NCBI GenBank assembly: GCA_947459855.1 | Contig: CANHFL010000001.1 | Location: 1 to 17,713, forward strand | DNA: 17,713 nucleotides | Source: Planctomycetaceae bacterium | GTDB lineage: Bacteria; Planctomycetota; Phycisphaerae; Phycisphaerales; SM1A02 | Direction: 5' to 3' | Part shown: positions 7,133 through 10,655 of the stretch, piece by piece | How positions within the stretch are numbered: position 1 is the first letter of the stretch | How the letters are laid out: each line of letters starts with the position of its first letter | Notes under the pieces: generated by a model | Told to the model about the DNA's origin: nothing | Database searches by the model: none | What the model saw: only the letters and a program-made list of their open reading frames with translations | Made by a program: the position numbers and the translations under genes

Positions 7133-7501
7133 GTGTCCATCAACGAATGGTCGGATGACATCCACATCGCCGAGCTCCAGGACGATCCGTCGTTCTCCGA
7201 GGACCTCACGAACCTCACGCTGCGCTACCAGGCGACGATCGACGCCGTGAAGGCCGGCCGCGACCGCCCCGAGACGCCGAACCTGGTGCTCGACCTGCGG
7301 CACGTGCATTTCCTGAACTCGACGAACATCGCCCAGCTGCTGCGCCTGCGCAAGGTGGCCATGACCGCCGGCGCCCGCGTCCGCGTGTGCTCCGTCAGCG
7401 ACCGCATCTGGGGCGTCCTGCTGGCCACCGACCTGGACCGCATCTTCGACTTCAGCGAGGACGTGACCACGGCCCTCGCGGCGCTGCAGATGCAGGTCTG
7501 A
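7133..7501 (+). CDS. STAS-domain protein (anti-sigma factor antagonist-like)
   Basis: 122 residues, a single STAS domain, cytoplasmic. LVLDLRHVHFLNSTNIAQLL (51-70) is the hallmark strand-loop-helix; in SpoIIAA-like antagonists this loop reads DSSG and the second Ser is phosphorylated by an anti-sigma kinase. Here the loop is NSTN, with T64 at the phosphosite, so regulation by Ser/Thr phosphorylation is possible but altered. ATDLDRIFDFSEDVTTALAAL is the usual C-terminal helix region. The start is GTG at 7133, set by a TATCCT box 6 nt upstream and by the lack of any earlier in-frame start. The gene is monocistronic: divergent from exbD and followed by a hairpin 10 bp after its stop. Anti-sigma kinase partners are not in the window; roles in envelope transport or signalling complexes are equally possible. 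Confidence 0.85.
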   Translation: MSINEWSDDIHIAELQDDPSFSEDLTNLTLRYQATIDAVKAGRDRPETPNLVLDLRHVHFLNSTNIAQLLRLRKVAMTAGARVRVCSVSDRIWGVLLATDLDRIFDFSEDVTTALAALQMQV

Positions 7502-7511
7502 CGGGCTGGCG

Positions 7512-7549
7512 CGGAAATTGGGTTCGGGATGACCCGGTACCGATTTCCG
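7512..7549 (+). terminator. Hairpin downstream of the STAS gene
   Basis: Arms 7512-7528 and 7533-7549 give a 17-position stem with two G-T wobbles and two mismatches around an ATGA loop, 10 bp after the STAS stop. There is no T-run, so Rho-independent termination would be atypical. It may instead be an mRNA 3' end stabiliser. Confidence 0.5.
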
Positions 7550-7598
7550 GGAGATGGGAATCGAGGCAGTGCGTGGTTGCCGCGCCCTGTCGCTGCGC

Positions 7599-7745
7599 TT
7601 GGCCCCCTCCTCCGCGAACTTCCTCGCTCCACCAGGTTCCGCTCGTCATCGTGTTCGGCTGGCTCGGCACGTGGCACGACCCGGGCCGAATCGGACCGTG
7701 GTACGCGTGCCTCGCGGCCTCGTACGTCGCTGCGGAGGGGGCCAA
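7599..7745. repeat. Long imperfect palindrome 1
   Basis: The outer arms are a perfect 12-bp match: TTGGCCCCCTCC (7599-7610) against GGAGGGGGCCAA (7734-7745). Inside, ACCAGGTTCCG (7631-7641) pairs with CGGACCGTGGT (7692-7702) with two mismatches, and TTCGGC (7654-7659) with GCCGAA (7685-7690). The pairs are nested, so the whole stretch can fold on itself. Confidence 0.5.
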
Positions 7746-7746
7746 T

Positions 7747-7842
7747 GCTCGCTGCGGGCGCTCGCCGGCGGACGTTCCTTGGGCGATTCATCGTGCCGCC
7801 ATTGCGGCACGATGACATGTCCGCAGGCGCCCAGAGCCGAGC
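7747..7842. repeat. Long imperfect palindrome 2, perfect 12-bp apical hairpin with CATT loop
   Basis: The apex is perfect: TCATCGTGCCGC (7788-7799), loop CATT (7800-7803), GCGGCACGATGA (7804-7815). The outer arms 7747-7773 and 7819-7842 match imperfectly (GCGGAC with GTCCGC, then GCTCG with CGAGC at the ends). It begins one base after palindrome 1 ends. Confidence 0.65.
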
Positions 7843-7843
7843 A

Positions 7844-7937
7844 CGGACCGGAGGGGGCCTCATCAAGCGAGTTGTCCCCGGCGGCGCCATTGCGCCGGCG
7901 GGGAAGTGTCTGAGCGACTGAGGCCCCCTCTGGTCCG
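7844..7937. repeat. Long palindrome 3, 19-bp outer stem and CATT-loop apical hairpin
   Basis: Outer arms 7844-7862 and 7919-7937 match over 19 positions, the only imperfection being a G-T wobble (7850/7931). The apex is TCCCCGGCGGCGC (7875-7887), loop CATT (7888-7891), GCGCCGGCGGGGA (7892-7904): 13 positions with one mismatch. The loop is the same as in palindrome 2, and the GGCCCCCTC/GAGGGGGCC motif of the outer arms recurs in palindrome 1. Confidence 0.7.
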
Positions 7938-7945
7938 CGCGCATG

Positions 7946-8011
7946 GCGACCAGGTGCCTTTCGCTCAGCGACCAGGTGCCTTTCGCATGGCGACCAAGTG
8001 CCTCGCCGTCC
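7946..8011. repeat. Three tandem 22-bp repeats
   Basis: Units start at 7946, 7968 and 7990. The first two share the 19-mer GCGACCAGGTGCCTTTCGC exactly and differ only in the last three bases (TCA, ATG). The third is diverged (GCGACCAAGTGCCTCGCCG). The period is exactly 22 bp, about two helical turns. They lie 44-109 bp beyond the gyrA stop. Confidence 0.8.
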
Positions 8012-8020
8012 CCGCCGCAA

Positions 8021-8051
8021 AGACCGCGCGGGGTCGTCCCGAACCCGGTCT
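8021..8051 (-). terminator. Possible weak gyrA terminator hairpin
   Basis: On the gyrA strand, AGACCG just after the stop codon (8051 to 8046) can pair with CGGTCT (8026 to 8021), with further imperfect G/C pairs inside, followed by TT. The stem is short and the T-run minimal. Confidence 0.3.
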
Positions 8052-8054
8052 CCG

Positions 8055-10655
8055 TCACTCCGCCGGCGTCGCCGTCACCGGCTCGTCGCCGGCCAGGACC
8101 TTGGCCACGCTCGCCACGCCGTCGCCCGAGTCCAGGGTGACCAGCCGCACGCCCTGCGTGTTGCGGCCCACCTGGCGCACGTCCGCCGCGCGGATGCGCA
8201 CGACCATGCCGCCGCGCGAGCTGAAGATCAGCTCGTCGCCGTCGGTCACGGTGCGCACGGCCACCACGCGGCCGTTGCGGCCCTCGGTGCGGATGTCGAT
8301 GCGGCCCTTGCCGCCGCGGCTCTGCGCGCGGGTCGTGCCGTCCTCGCTCTGCACCAGGTACTCGCGCAGGGGGGTGCGCTTGCCGTAGCCGGTGGCGCAG
8401 ACGGTGAGCAGGTCGGAATCGTCGCAGACCACGCCGCCGACGACCTCGTCGCCCTCGGCCAGGTCGATGCCGATCACGCCCGCCGCGCTGCGGCCCATGA
8501 CGCGCGCGTCGTTCTCGTCGAAGCGGATCGACATGCCGTCGGCGGTCGCCAGCAGCACGTGGTCCGCGCCGCGGGTCAGCAGCACGTCGACCAGGCGGTC
8601 GCCTTCCTTCAGGCCCAGCGCGATGATGCCGGCCTTGTTGACGTTGCGGTACTCCTGCAGCGCGGTGCGCTTCACCTGGCCGTTCGCGCTCAGGAAGAAC
8701 AGGAAGTCCTCGCGAGCCTCGAAGTTGGACACCGGCAGCCACGCGCAGATCCGCTCGTCCTTGCGCAGGTCCAGCAGGTTCTGGATCGCGCGGCCCTTCG
8801 CGGTGCGGGCGGCCTCGGGGACCTGCCAGACCTTGATCTTGAACACGCGGCCCGTGTTCGTGAAGCAGAGCATGTCGTCGTGGCTGCTGCACACCAGCAG
8901 GTGCTCGACGCTGTCGGCGTCCTCGTCGCCGCCGCTGCCGGCGCCCTTGGCGCCGATCACGCCCTTGCCGCCGCGGCCCTGCACGCGGTACGTGTCGCTC
9001 GGCAGCCGCTTCACCCAGCCGCGCCTGCTCACCGTCAGCACCACCTCGTGCTCCGGGATCAGGTCGGCCATCTCGAAGTCCTCGGCCTCGTTGCCCTCGA
9101 TCGTGGTGCGGCGGGCGTCGCCGAACCTCTCCTTCAGCTCGATCGTGTCCTCGCGGATGATGTCGAGCACCAGGCGCTCGTCGGCCAGGATCGCCTCGTA
9201 GCCCTCGATCTCCTCGACCAGTCCGCTCAGCTCGCCGGCCAGCTTCTCGATCTCCAGGCCCGTCAGCTGGATCAGGCGCAGGGCGCCGATCGCCTCGGCC
9301 TGCACCCGGGTCAGCGCGGTGCCGGACGGCTCGGTCTTCGCGATCACGGCCTCGGGGATCTTCGGCGCGTAGGGGTGGCTGCGCGGGATGCGGAAGCTGC
9401 GTGCCATCAGGCCCGCGATCGCCTCGTCGCGCGTGCGCGCGGCGCGGATGATGCGGATCACCTCGTCGATGTCGCACACTGCGTAGATCAGGCCCTCGAG
9501 CTTGTGGGCCTGCTGCTTCGCCTGGCGCAGCAGGTAGGCCGTGCGCCGGCGGATGACGTCCTTGCGGTGGTCGACGTACAGGTCGATCAGGTTGCGCAGC
9601 GGCAGCGTGCGCGGCTGGCCGTTGACCAGCGCGATGTTGATGATGCTGAACGTGTCCTGCAGCGGCGTGAACTCGTACAGCTGCTTCTCGACCACCGCGG
9701 GGTCGGCGTTCTTCTTCAGCACCACCACGATGCGCGTCTGCGCGTCGCGGCCGGAGTGGTTCTTGACGTCCGCGATGTCCGGGATGCGGTCGTTGCGGCT
9801 CGCGTCGACGATCTTCTCGATGAGGGTCGACTGCACCACCTGGTACGGGATCTCGTCGATGACGATCGCGTCGCGGCCGCCCTCCTTCGTCAGGTGCACC
9901 TTGCCGCGCACCGTCAGCTTTCCGCGGCCGGTGGCGTATGCCTCGACGATCCCGCGGCGTCCCATGATCGTGCCGCCGGTCGGGAAGTCCGGGCCCGGCA
10001 CCAGCTTCATCAGGTCCTCGAGCCCGACCTGCGGGTTGTCGATGGTCGCGACGATCGCGTCGCAGATCTCGCGCACGTTGTGCGGGGGCATGCTGCTGGA
10101 CATGCCCACGGCGATGCCGCTCGAGCCGTTGACCAGCAGGTTCGGGAACTTGGCCGGCAGGACGGTGGGCTCCTGCAGGCGGTCGTCGTAGTTGGGCTTG
10201 AAATCGACCGTCTCCTTGTCCAGGTCGTCCAGCAGCGCCACCGCGGCGGCGGTCATGCGCGCCTCGGTGTAACGCATAGCGGCCGGCGGGTCGCCCTCGA
10301 TGGAGCCGAAGTTGCCCTGCTTGTCGACCAGCAGCGCGCGCGTCTTCCAGACCTGGCCCAGGTTGACCAGCGTCGGGTAGATGACGCTCTCGCCGTGCGG
10401 GTGGTAGTTGCCGCTCGTGTCGCCGCAGATCTTGGCGCACTTGATGTGCTTGCGCCCGGGCGTCAGGTTCAGGTCGTGCATCGCCACCAGGATGCGGCGC
10501 TGCGAGGGCTTCAGGCCGTCACGGACGTCGGGCAGCGCCCGGTCCATGATGGTGCTCATGGCGTACGTCAGGTAGCTGTCGTGCAGCTCGCGCTCGATGT
10601 CGATGTCGACGAGGCGATCGACCGGCGGGACGGTGTTTTCGGGGGTTTCAGCCAT
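8055..10655 (-). CDS. gyrA: DNA gyrase subunit A
   Basis: 866-residue breakage-reunion subunit of DNA gyrase, which introduces negative supercoils together with GyrB. The N-terminal DNA-cleavage domain contains YAMSTIMDRALPDVRDGLKP (31-50), the quinolone-pocket region HPHGES (85-90) and the catalytic tyrosine Y129 in AAMRYTE. The C-terminal beta-pinwheel begins near 530. It carries the GyrA box QGRGGKG (559-565), which distinguishes GyrA from ParC, and a second box-like QSRGGKG (778-784). The length is within the family range. At the quinolone pocket, E. coli D82-S83 reads E89-S90, and E. coli D87 is replaced by P94. ATG at 10655 is the first start in the conserved frame; a TATCAT box 19 nt upstream gives a short leader without a strong Shine-Dalgarno. 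No gyrB is in the window. Long open frames on the opposite strand are shadows. Confidence 0.98.
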   Translation of the reverse strand: MAETPENTVPPVDRLVDIDIERELHDSYLTYAMSTIMDRALPDVRDGLKPSQRRILVAMHDLNLTPGRKHIKCAKICGDTSGNYHPHGESVIYPTLVNLGQVWKTRALLVDKQGNFGSIEGDPPAAMRYTEARMTAAAVALLDDLDKETVDFKPNYDDRLQEPTVLPAKFPNLLVNGSSGIAVGMSSSMPPHNVREICDAIVATIDNPQVGLEDLMKLVPGPDFPTGGTIMGRRGIVEAYATGRGKLTVRGKVHLTKEGGRDAIVIDEIPYQVVQSTLIEKIVDASRNDRIPDIADVKNHSGRDAQTRIVVVLKKNADPAVVEKQLYEFTPLQDTFSIINIALVNGQPRTLPLRNLIDLYVDHRKDVIRRRTAYLLRQAKQQAHKLEGLIYAVCDIDEVIRIIRAARTRDEAIAGLMARSFRIPRSHPYAPKIPEAVIAKTEPSGTALTRVQAEAIGALRLIQLTGLEIEKLAGELSGLVEEIEGYEAILADERLVLDIIREDTIELKERFGDARRTTIEGNEAEDFEMADLIPEHEVVLTVSRRGWVKRLPSDTYRVQGRGGKGVIGAKGAGSGGDEDADSVEHLLVCSSHDDMLCFTNTGRVFKIKVWQVPEAARTAKGRAIQNLLDLRKDERICAWLPVSNFEAREDFLFFLSANGQVKRTALQEYRNVNKAGIIALGLKEGDRLVDVLLTRGADHVLLATADGMSIRFDENDARVMGRSAAGVIGIDLAEGDEVVGGVVCDDSDLLTVCATGYGKRTPLREYLVQSEDGTTRAQSRGGKGRIDIRTEGRNGRVVAVRTVTDGDELIFSSRGGMVVRIRAADVRQVGRNTQGVRLVTLDSGDGVASVAKVLAGDEPVTATPAE

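Follow-up and report, generated by a model that had tools for sequence, protein, structure and literature searches.

The three abutting palindromes beside gyrA, at 7599-7937 of the window (the whole 17,713-nt stretch of DNA analysed), are only the inner part of a longer repeat unit. Our analyses make it likely that they are the interior of a single copy of a REP/REPIN- or MITE-like element, which is dispersed, non-coding and rich in hairpins and which multiplies as DNA. The data fit a non-autonomous DNA element of this kind carried in a REPIN-like doublet, and not a regulator of gyrA. A REP- or MITE-like palindromic element was among the readings offered by the original prediction, and it is borne out by copies at 15 places, inverted arms, short gyrA gaps in relatives and a location mainly at gene ends.

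Minimum-energy folding of 7590-7945 reproduced the three abutting nested hairpins described originally, with an apex of 12 pairs and a CATT loop in hairpin 2, an apex of 13 steps including one mismatch around the same CATT loop in hairpin 3, and an outer stem of 19 pairs in the latter. The motif GGCCCCCTC/GAGGGGGCC was likewise present in the outer arms of hairpins 1 and 3. It had been argued that chance does not easily build such a structure, and the fold was indeed far more stable than expected (z = -6.24 for the + strand, -6.52 for the - strand), none of 100 dinucleotide-preserving shuffles being as stable on either strand. Alignment of copies and scanning placed the full unit at approximately 7514-8052, bounded on either side by an inverted 35-nt palindromic arm, of which the right-hand one is degenerate (Table 1). 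Folded as single-stranded DNA, 7513-8053 gave z = -9.96 (0/100 shuffles equally stable), the arms closing a branched structure that encloses the three hairpins. The tandem repeats directly 3′ of hairpin 3 vary in number between copies, and two relatives of the source genome (G003 and G005) carry different short repeated stretches in their place.

Table 1. Features of the repeat unit and of its two neighbouring genes, in window coordinates
Feature	Position	Strand	Basis
STAS-like gene (presumed)	7133..7501	+	ORF list, GC-phase gene call; adjoins gyrA in 10 relatives
Left arm, palindromic REP-like unit GAAATTGGGTTCGGGATGACCCGGTACCGATTTCC	7514..7548	+	22-nt pattern scan, copy alignment
Leader (GAGGCAGTGCGTGGT-GCCGCGCCC-TCGCTGCGC)	7549..7598	+	alignment of source-genome copies
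Hairpin 1, core CTCGCTCCACCAGGTTYCGCTCG	7599..7745	+	fold; pattern search in 121 genomes; G030 copies
Hairpin 2	7747..7842	+	alignment of source-genome copies
Hairpin 3, outer stem and apical stem	7844..7937	+	fold; paired outer-stem changes in 29 sequences
Hairpin 3 internal loop, conserved 5′ strand CAAGCGAGTT	7864..7873	+	
Hairpin 3 internal loop, conserved 3′ strand TGTCTGAGCGA	7907..7917	+	
Short imperfect tandem repeats (GGCGACCAGGTGCCTTTCGC)	7941..8004	+	sequence, copy alignment
Right arm, degenerate inverted copy of left arm (5 mismatches in 22 nt)	8019..8052	-	scan
gyrA (presumed)	8055..10655	-	compared with relatives by sequence only

Further copies, which the original prediction had proposed to look for, were found by sequence search at 15 places in the source genome (assembly of 1.63 Mb in 309 contigs, 69.7% complete) and, in large numbers, in relatives belonging to its genus and to two further genera. 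Alignment of all 15 revealed a modular build. Hairpin 2 is missing on contigs C20, C50, C94 and C285, where the direct repeat GGAGGGGGCC forms the junction of hairpins 1 and 3. Hairpin 1 is lost on C264 and C87 and hairpin 3 on C56, C26, C79 and C243, only the 3′ arm of the latter being left on C87; copies on C74, C79, C216 and C243 are also interrupted by contig ends. The leader is duplicated in some copies (C74, C26). Every copy has at least one arm, which is weak on C56 and C87 (5-6 mismatches in 22 nt).

With up to 3 mismatches, the 22-nt arm pattern gave 37 matches in the source genome against 0 for the reversed control, totals in which a palindromic unit can count on both strands. Five more matches came from other genomes of the genus, confined to 2 of 13. 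Arms also occur without the core, either as inverted doublets of 69-73 nt (C2, C75, C181, C286) or as single palindromes (e.g. C42, C122). Three 34-nt candidate doublets (C42, C122, C285) turned out to be single palindromes matched on both strands, and an arm doublet at the end of contig C204 may be an assembly artefact. This organisation fits a hairpin core (hairpins 1-3) nested, in the source genome, within an inverted pair of REP-like units, that is, a REPIN-like doublet. No target-site duplication was seen by eye in the aligned copies from this incomplete genome, and no full-length parent with a transposase was found, the search of the (incomplete) source genome covering PF01797 only.

In the window, the left arm begins 12 nt beyond the stop codon of a gene that we take to be STAS-domain-like, and 2 nt separate the right arm from the stop codon of the gene named gyrA in the original prediction, a name that agrees with our own assumption. 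To place the other copies, genes were called with a GC-phase heuristic devised for this analysis. For 41 of 42 arm ends in the fetched loci (up to 4 mismatches), a gene was called on the outer side, and it faced the arm with its 3′ end in 31 cases and with its 5′ end in 10. In 28 of these 31, the position of the arm end ranged from 19 nt inside to 5 nt past the stop codon. The arm often supplies the neighbouring gene's stop codon, through its first G or GA or through a TAA within it (e.g. L017, L019, L066-L080). The wider flank count drew on 65 loci (15 from the source genome, 12 from G003, 5 from G005, 11 of the 16 fetched stretches from G030, 15 from genus g44 and 7 from other genomes of the genus of the source), three of which had no recognisable marker. 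In the 62 left, called flanks were gene 3′ ends in 77 of 100 cases, and in g44 in only 10 of 18, a weak preference. Where genes were called on both sides (41 loci), the neighbours were convergent in 25, co-directional in 12 and divergent in 4. Passages of PMC3733652 describe GTAG and CGTC REPs whose termini supply stop codons and which lie mostly between convergent and unidirectional genes.

A DNA search of 61 genomes including the source identified 11 with matches, which in some (G028, G032, G042) amounted to a single stretch of 28-32 nt. A gapped pattern of hairpin 3 found 20 stretches in five MAG assemblies, titled Planctomycetaceae bacterium (two), Phycisphaera mikurensis, Planctomycetota bacterium and Phycisphaerales bacterium. 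Across the order, a search with the loop and its spacer matched 10 of 251 genomes, seven of them in multiple copies: the source genome (7), G003 (12), G005 (6) and, in genus g44, G186 (4), G192 (3), G209 (4) and G558 (12). Single hairpin-3 matches in G076, G152 and G554 were at control level (4 singles with the reversed control), as was one in G205 (2 singles with the reversed control). The core of hairpin 1, searched in 121 genomes, was multi-copy in the source (11), G003 (2), G005 (3) and G030 of genus g18 (21); single matches in seven other genomes were again at control level (six in the reversed control).

The composition of copies differs between these hosts. G030 copies keep the order of the source genome, the leader and hairpin 1 being followed, in the longer copies, by hairpin 3. 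Three g44 copies retrieved with wide flanks (L211, L222, L227) showed hairpin 3 only, once with a partial second unit. In G003, which has 15 hairpin-3 matches, the core is as in the source genome and is bordered by other arms (AAATCCGCTCCTGGTTCGTTTGGCACC...), adjoining stop codons by eye; these arms gave 32 matches against 0 in the control, including a core-less doublet on C27. Arms thus differ between species around a common core, and hairpin-3 copies resemble those of their own genome. In addition, 13 of the 21 G030 hairpin-1 matches are no more than about 300 nt away from the end of a contig (e.g. L176-L179), so the repeat probably breaks the G030 assembly.

Compensatory changes between relatives, which the original prediction had also called for, were found in the outer stem of hairpin 3. 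Across 29 distinct sequences from the genus, this stem was paired in 99.4% of cells, compared to 35-52% when the 3′ side was slid. Two-sided changes occurred in 47 cells against 18.8 in shuffles and the covariation score was 0.257 against 0.077 (none of 500 shuffles reaching either value), figures which are inflated by kinship among the 29 sequences; the numbers of double-change pairs (4) and of pair types (9) were not above shuffles. The stem is GGCCTCA/TGAGGCC in the source genome, GGCACCA/TGGTGCC or GTGCTATCA/TGATAGCAC in g44 and GGCATGCCTCG/CGAGGCATGCC in G030. It is complementary in nearly all copies, with one mismatch each in L003 and L018 and two in L228. In the alignment that includes g44, the outer stems of G186, G192 and G209 lie one column off the g1 register, so the pair counts do not draw on that alignment. 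On a simple scale of arm pairing, with a maximum of 8, the outer arms reached 7.3-8 inside single genomes, 6.5-8 across g1 genomes and 3-7 when genera were compared, against 5.2 for shuffled arms; in this comparison, two rows labelled G003 are in fact from G030 (L038) and from a chance viral match (L188).

The internal loop strands AGCGAGTT / TGTCTGAGCGA are fixed while the outer stems around them differ, and the strands (C)AAGCGAGTT and TGTCYGAGCGA hardly vary between genera. We infer that the fixed loop is recognised by a protein. The apical stem is clear within the source genome, G003 and G005 (7.1-8); in G007, G030 and g44 it contains bulges and its scores of 5.0-6.3 do not clearly exceed those of shuffled arms. 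It is absent from the consensus fold computed for the 29 sequences.

The original prediction had also raised a structured non-coding RNA. Such an RNA motif would have its hairpin 3 loop bound by a protein or acting in the 3′ UTR, for example by halting RNA decay or transcription, and would have spread by chance duplication. Copies located mainly behind genes, a folding far better than shuffled and an outer stem that changes in pairs around a fixed loop would suit it. However, between co-directional genes the element ran with transcription in 6 cases and against it in 6, a split that, in only 12 cases, speaks against a strand-specific RNA. Neither a terminator-like T run nor a sigma-70-like promoter was found in 7400-8100. 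In line with the earlier remark that no named family fits, Rfam returned no family at gathering score in the window (five weak matches in 7480-8070 were far below the cut-offs), and across the tested loci the sole match to reach that score was a tRNA adjoining a G030 copy. We consider an RNA an unlikely account of the repeat as a whole.

REPs are thought to depend on RAYT enzymes. The source genome holds one Y1_Tnp (PF01797) match, at L065:2780-3760 (contig C5), in a gap bordered by genes presumed to be leuS and folC. It is flanked by inverted copies of the GTAG-tagged GTAGGACGGAACCCGGTTGACCGGGTT, a separate family of 10 matches present only in the source genome among 14 of the genus. Even with 6 mismatches allowed, the surrounding 6.5 kb showed no arm of the element. 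In an assembly 69.7% complete, a second RAYT could be missing. In G005 (L025) and G013 (L034), the leuS-folC gap holds hairpin modules where the source genome has the RAYT-like gene.

Among 11 copy-bearing relatives, Y1_Tnp was present in three (G004, G005, G007) and was not detected, by a search for PF01797 only, in the other eight, namely G003 (97% complete), G012 (88%), G013 (69%) and G030, G186, G192, G209 and G558 (91-97%). Conversely, G001, G002, G006, G008 and G011 have Y1_Tnp and no element match, and G574 has neither Y1_Tnp nor a loop match. No GTAG or CGTC tag was seen on the printed arm ends, which read GAAAT in the source genome and (A)AAT in G003, or on the core. According to passages of PMC8266576, TnpA-REP enzymes vary in how far they rely on the GTAG tag and on the hairpin.

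These data weigh on the idea of a classical REPIN moved by a RAYT, with the core as passenger between two REPs. The arms are small palindromes, partly in inverted doublets and near stop codons, and a Y1_Tnp gene does exist in the source genome, but that gene is accompanied by the other, GTAG-tagged repeat and the element's arms are devoid of GTAG. Moreover, G003 reached its 32 arm and 15 hairpin-3 matches, and G030 and four g44 genomes have core hairpins, with no Y1_Tnp match. We consider a classical REPIN quite improbable. The family thus behaves like REP/REPIN or MITE repeats, although neither the tag nor a RAYT flanked by its own repeat was found.

The gyrA gap was then compared with that of relatives. 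Among the 13 other genomes of the genus, 11 yielded gyrA, which is followed on the fetched stretch by the STAS-like gene in 10 of these 11 (absent there in G007). The gap measures 553 nt in the source genome and 2, 3, 21, 21, 22, 75, 80, 80, 81 and 115 nt in the 10 relatives with both genes adjacent, all of which lack the element there. Other sites are shared. The C94 site of the source genome is also occupied in G003 and G013; the source and G013 copies are co-oriented and could be inherited, whereas the G003 copy lies in the opposite orientation with its own arms, which suggests repeated insertion at one place. The C285 site is shared with G030, which belongs to a different genus, and the two copies there are oriented alike. 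The source C243 copy has neighbours that also lie near a G030 copy (L172), but at a different gap.

A few sites common to species, and one to another genus, together with the resemblance of hairpin-3 copies within each genome, would be expected if old, non-mobile copies were inherited at fixed sites and kept alike by gene conversion. The absence of the element from the gyrA gap of all 10 relatives with both genes adjacent, the opposite-oriented G003 copy at a shared site and arms that differ between species argue against this scenario, to which we give a distinctly low probability. Finally, a 3′ regulatory structure specific to gyrA, another suggestion of the original prediction, would suit the spacing of 2 nt to the gyrA stop codon but can practically be dismissed, as 14 of the 15 source-genome copies lie elsewhere and the relatives do without the element beside gyrA.

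The fixed loop led outside the Planctomycetota. Its strands in swapped order, TGTCTGAGCGNAGCGAGTT, form a motif suspected to cap hairpins in other bacteria. This permuted form had no exact match in 294 Planctomycetota genomes. An exact scan of viral contigs gave 8 stretches, and low-threshold plasmid searches returned 8 and 28 records, of which 7 loop-covering matches were examined: Ilyobacter twice (Fusobacteriota), Aureibacter and Parabacteroides (Bacteroidota), Marinobacter and Variovorax (Pseudomonadota) and Streptomyces. These 15 loci hold 17 places with at most one mismatch to TGTCTGAGCGNAGCGAGTT. A perfect stem of at least 6 pairs within 2 nt closes 7 of the 17, compared to 0.46% of random positions in the same loci, although the plasmid queries were themselves TGTCTGAGCGNAGCGAGTT hairpins and may favour matches with stems. 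Six of the stem-closed places are in plasmids (L190, L191, L192, L193 twice, L195) and one is viral (L182), so that the permuted strands cap hairpins in a small number of plasmids from Pseudomonadota, Bacteroidota and Fusobacteriota. No stem was found at one Ilyobacter place (L189) or at the Streptomyces place (L194), which is inside a coding gene, and the Aureibacter place overlaps a small gene annotated as hypothetical. The permuted loop matched only 7 records in 28.0 billion bases of E. coli, all at 92% over 25 nt and in coding genes.

Several single observations accompany these searches. In L183 and L193, a second copy of TGTCTGAGCGNAGCGAGTT with one mismatch lies a few hundred bases away in opposite orientation. 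In the Marinobacter plasmid pHP-187 (L191:560-665), the permuted loop tips a very long, near-perfect intergenic hairpin. With the permuted-loop phage query, the best of the 20 records listed were the uncultured gut-phage sequences MT837089.1 and MT836232.1. The 50,697 phage records contained no match to the element itself. Other candidates were discarded: the permuted counterpart for hairpin 1 (GGTGGAGCGNAGCGAAACC) had three viral matches, of which one has a stem of 4 pairs and the other two lack a convincing stem; the native loop order with its spacer had one viral match and no stem; a shorter permuted loop had 10 further viral matches, with a best stem of 5 pairs and mostly 1-3, which we took as chance.

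The TGTCTGAGCGNAGCGAGTT hairpins of other phyla thus share the two loop strands of hairpin 3, but the strands are circularly permuted and form one apical loop, whereas in hairpin 3 they form an internal loop between two stems. We propose, tentatively and as a possibility more doubtful than not, that AGCGAGTT and TGTCTGAGCGA together constitute a multi-phylum structural recognition site for a hairpin-specific enzyme that moves or processes DNA, used in either circular order, whether as an apical or an internal loop, the fold being read and not the linear sequence. The element would then represent a branch of a large palindromic repeat superfamily, beside those tagged by GTAG and CGTC.

Compared with known systems, the element resembles REP, REPIN and BIME sequences with their RAYT, as depicted in parts of PMC3733652, PMC8266576 and PMC3116915, in its small palindromes and inverted doublets and in an intergenic location mostly behind genes, where it often supplies the stop codon. 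Palindromes of 20-50 nt, many mostly intergenic copies and inverted doublets are all present. It departs from them by its size of about 540 nt with three long hairpins, by arms and core that carry neither GTAG nor CGTC, and by a Y1_Tnp gene flanked by another repeat where a cognate RAYT would be flanked by the same one. With MITEs it shares terminal inverted repeats (the right arm in the window being degenerate and some copies one-armed), a non-coding nature, many copies, a lineage-specific presence at gyrA and an empty site there in relatives. It differs from MITEs in that no autonomous parent and no target duplication were found and in that the arms vary between species around a common core. 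The element is REP/MITE-like, of a kind already known, and the variant is new. In a literature search, with subscription papers mostly outside its scope, none of the listed titles and abstract openings described it; the three works that contain one of the 13-mers searched for concern, by title, plants and mouse nerve.

Most likely, this REP/MITE-like element propagates in the form of folded DNA, which enters the space that follows stop codons. Single-stranded DNA, for instance on the lagging strand, would fold into the branched hairpin, which an enzyme encoded elsewhere may recognise and move; we infer this passage through a single-stranded hairpin. Insertion would occur mostly into the tight space directly behind stop codons and, in the source genome, the core would either travel or sit inside the REPIN-like doublet of arms. 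Some sites common to species or even genera run counter to such mobility, and could also be explained by inheritance plus homogenisation.

What emerges is a many-copy REP-like family with paired stem changes whose hosts are mostly without a detectable RAYT (8 of 11 copy-bearing relatives), so that there probably is, or once was, another mover. What deserves to be followed up is the shared loop: fixed here and permuted in distant bacteria, it offers a concrete bait for finding that mover. If the proposal of a shared recognition site is true, the enzyme of this site would be one not yet linked to any repeat.
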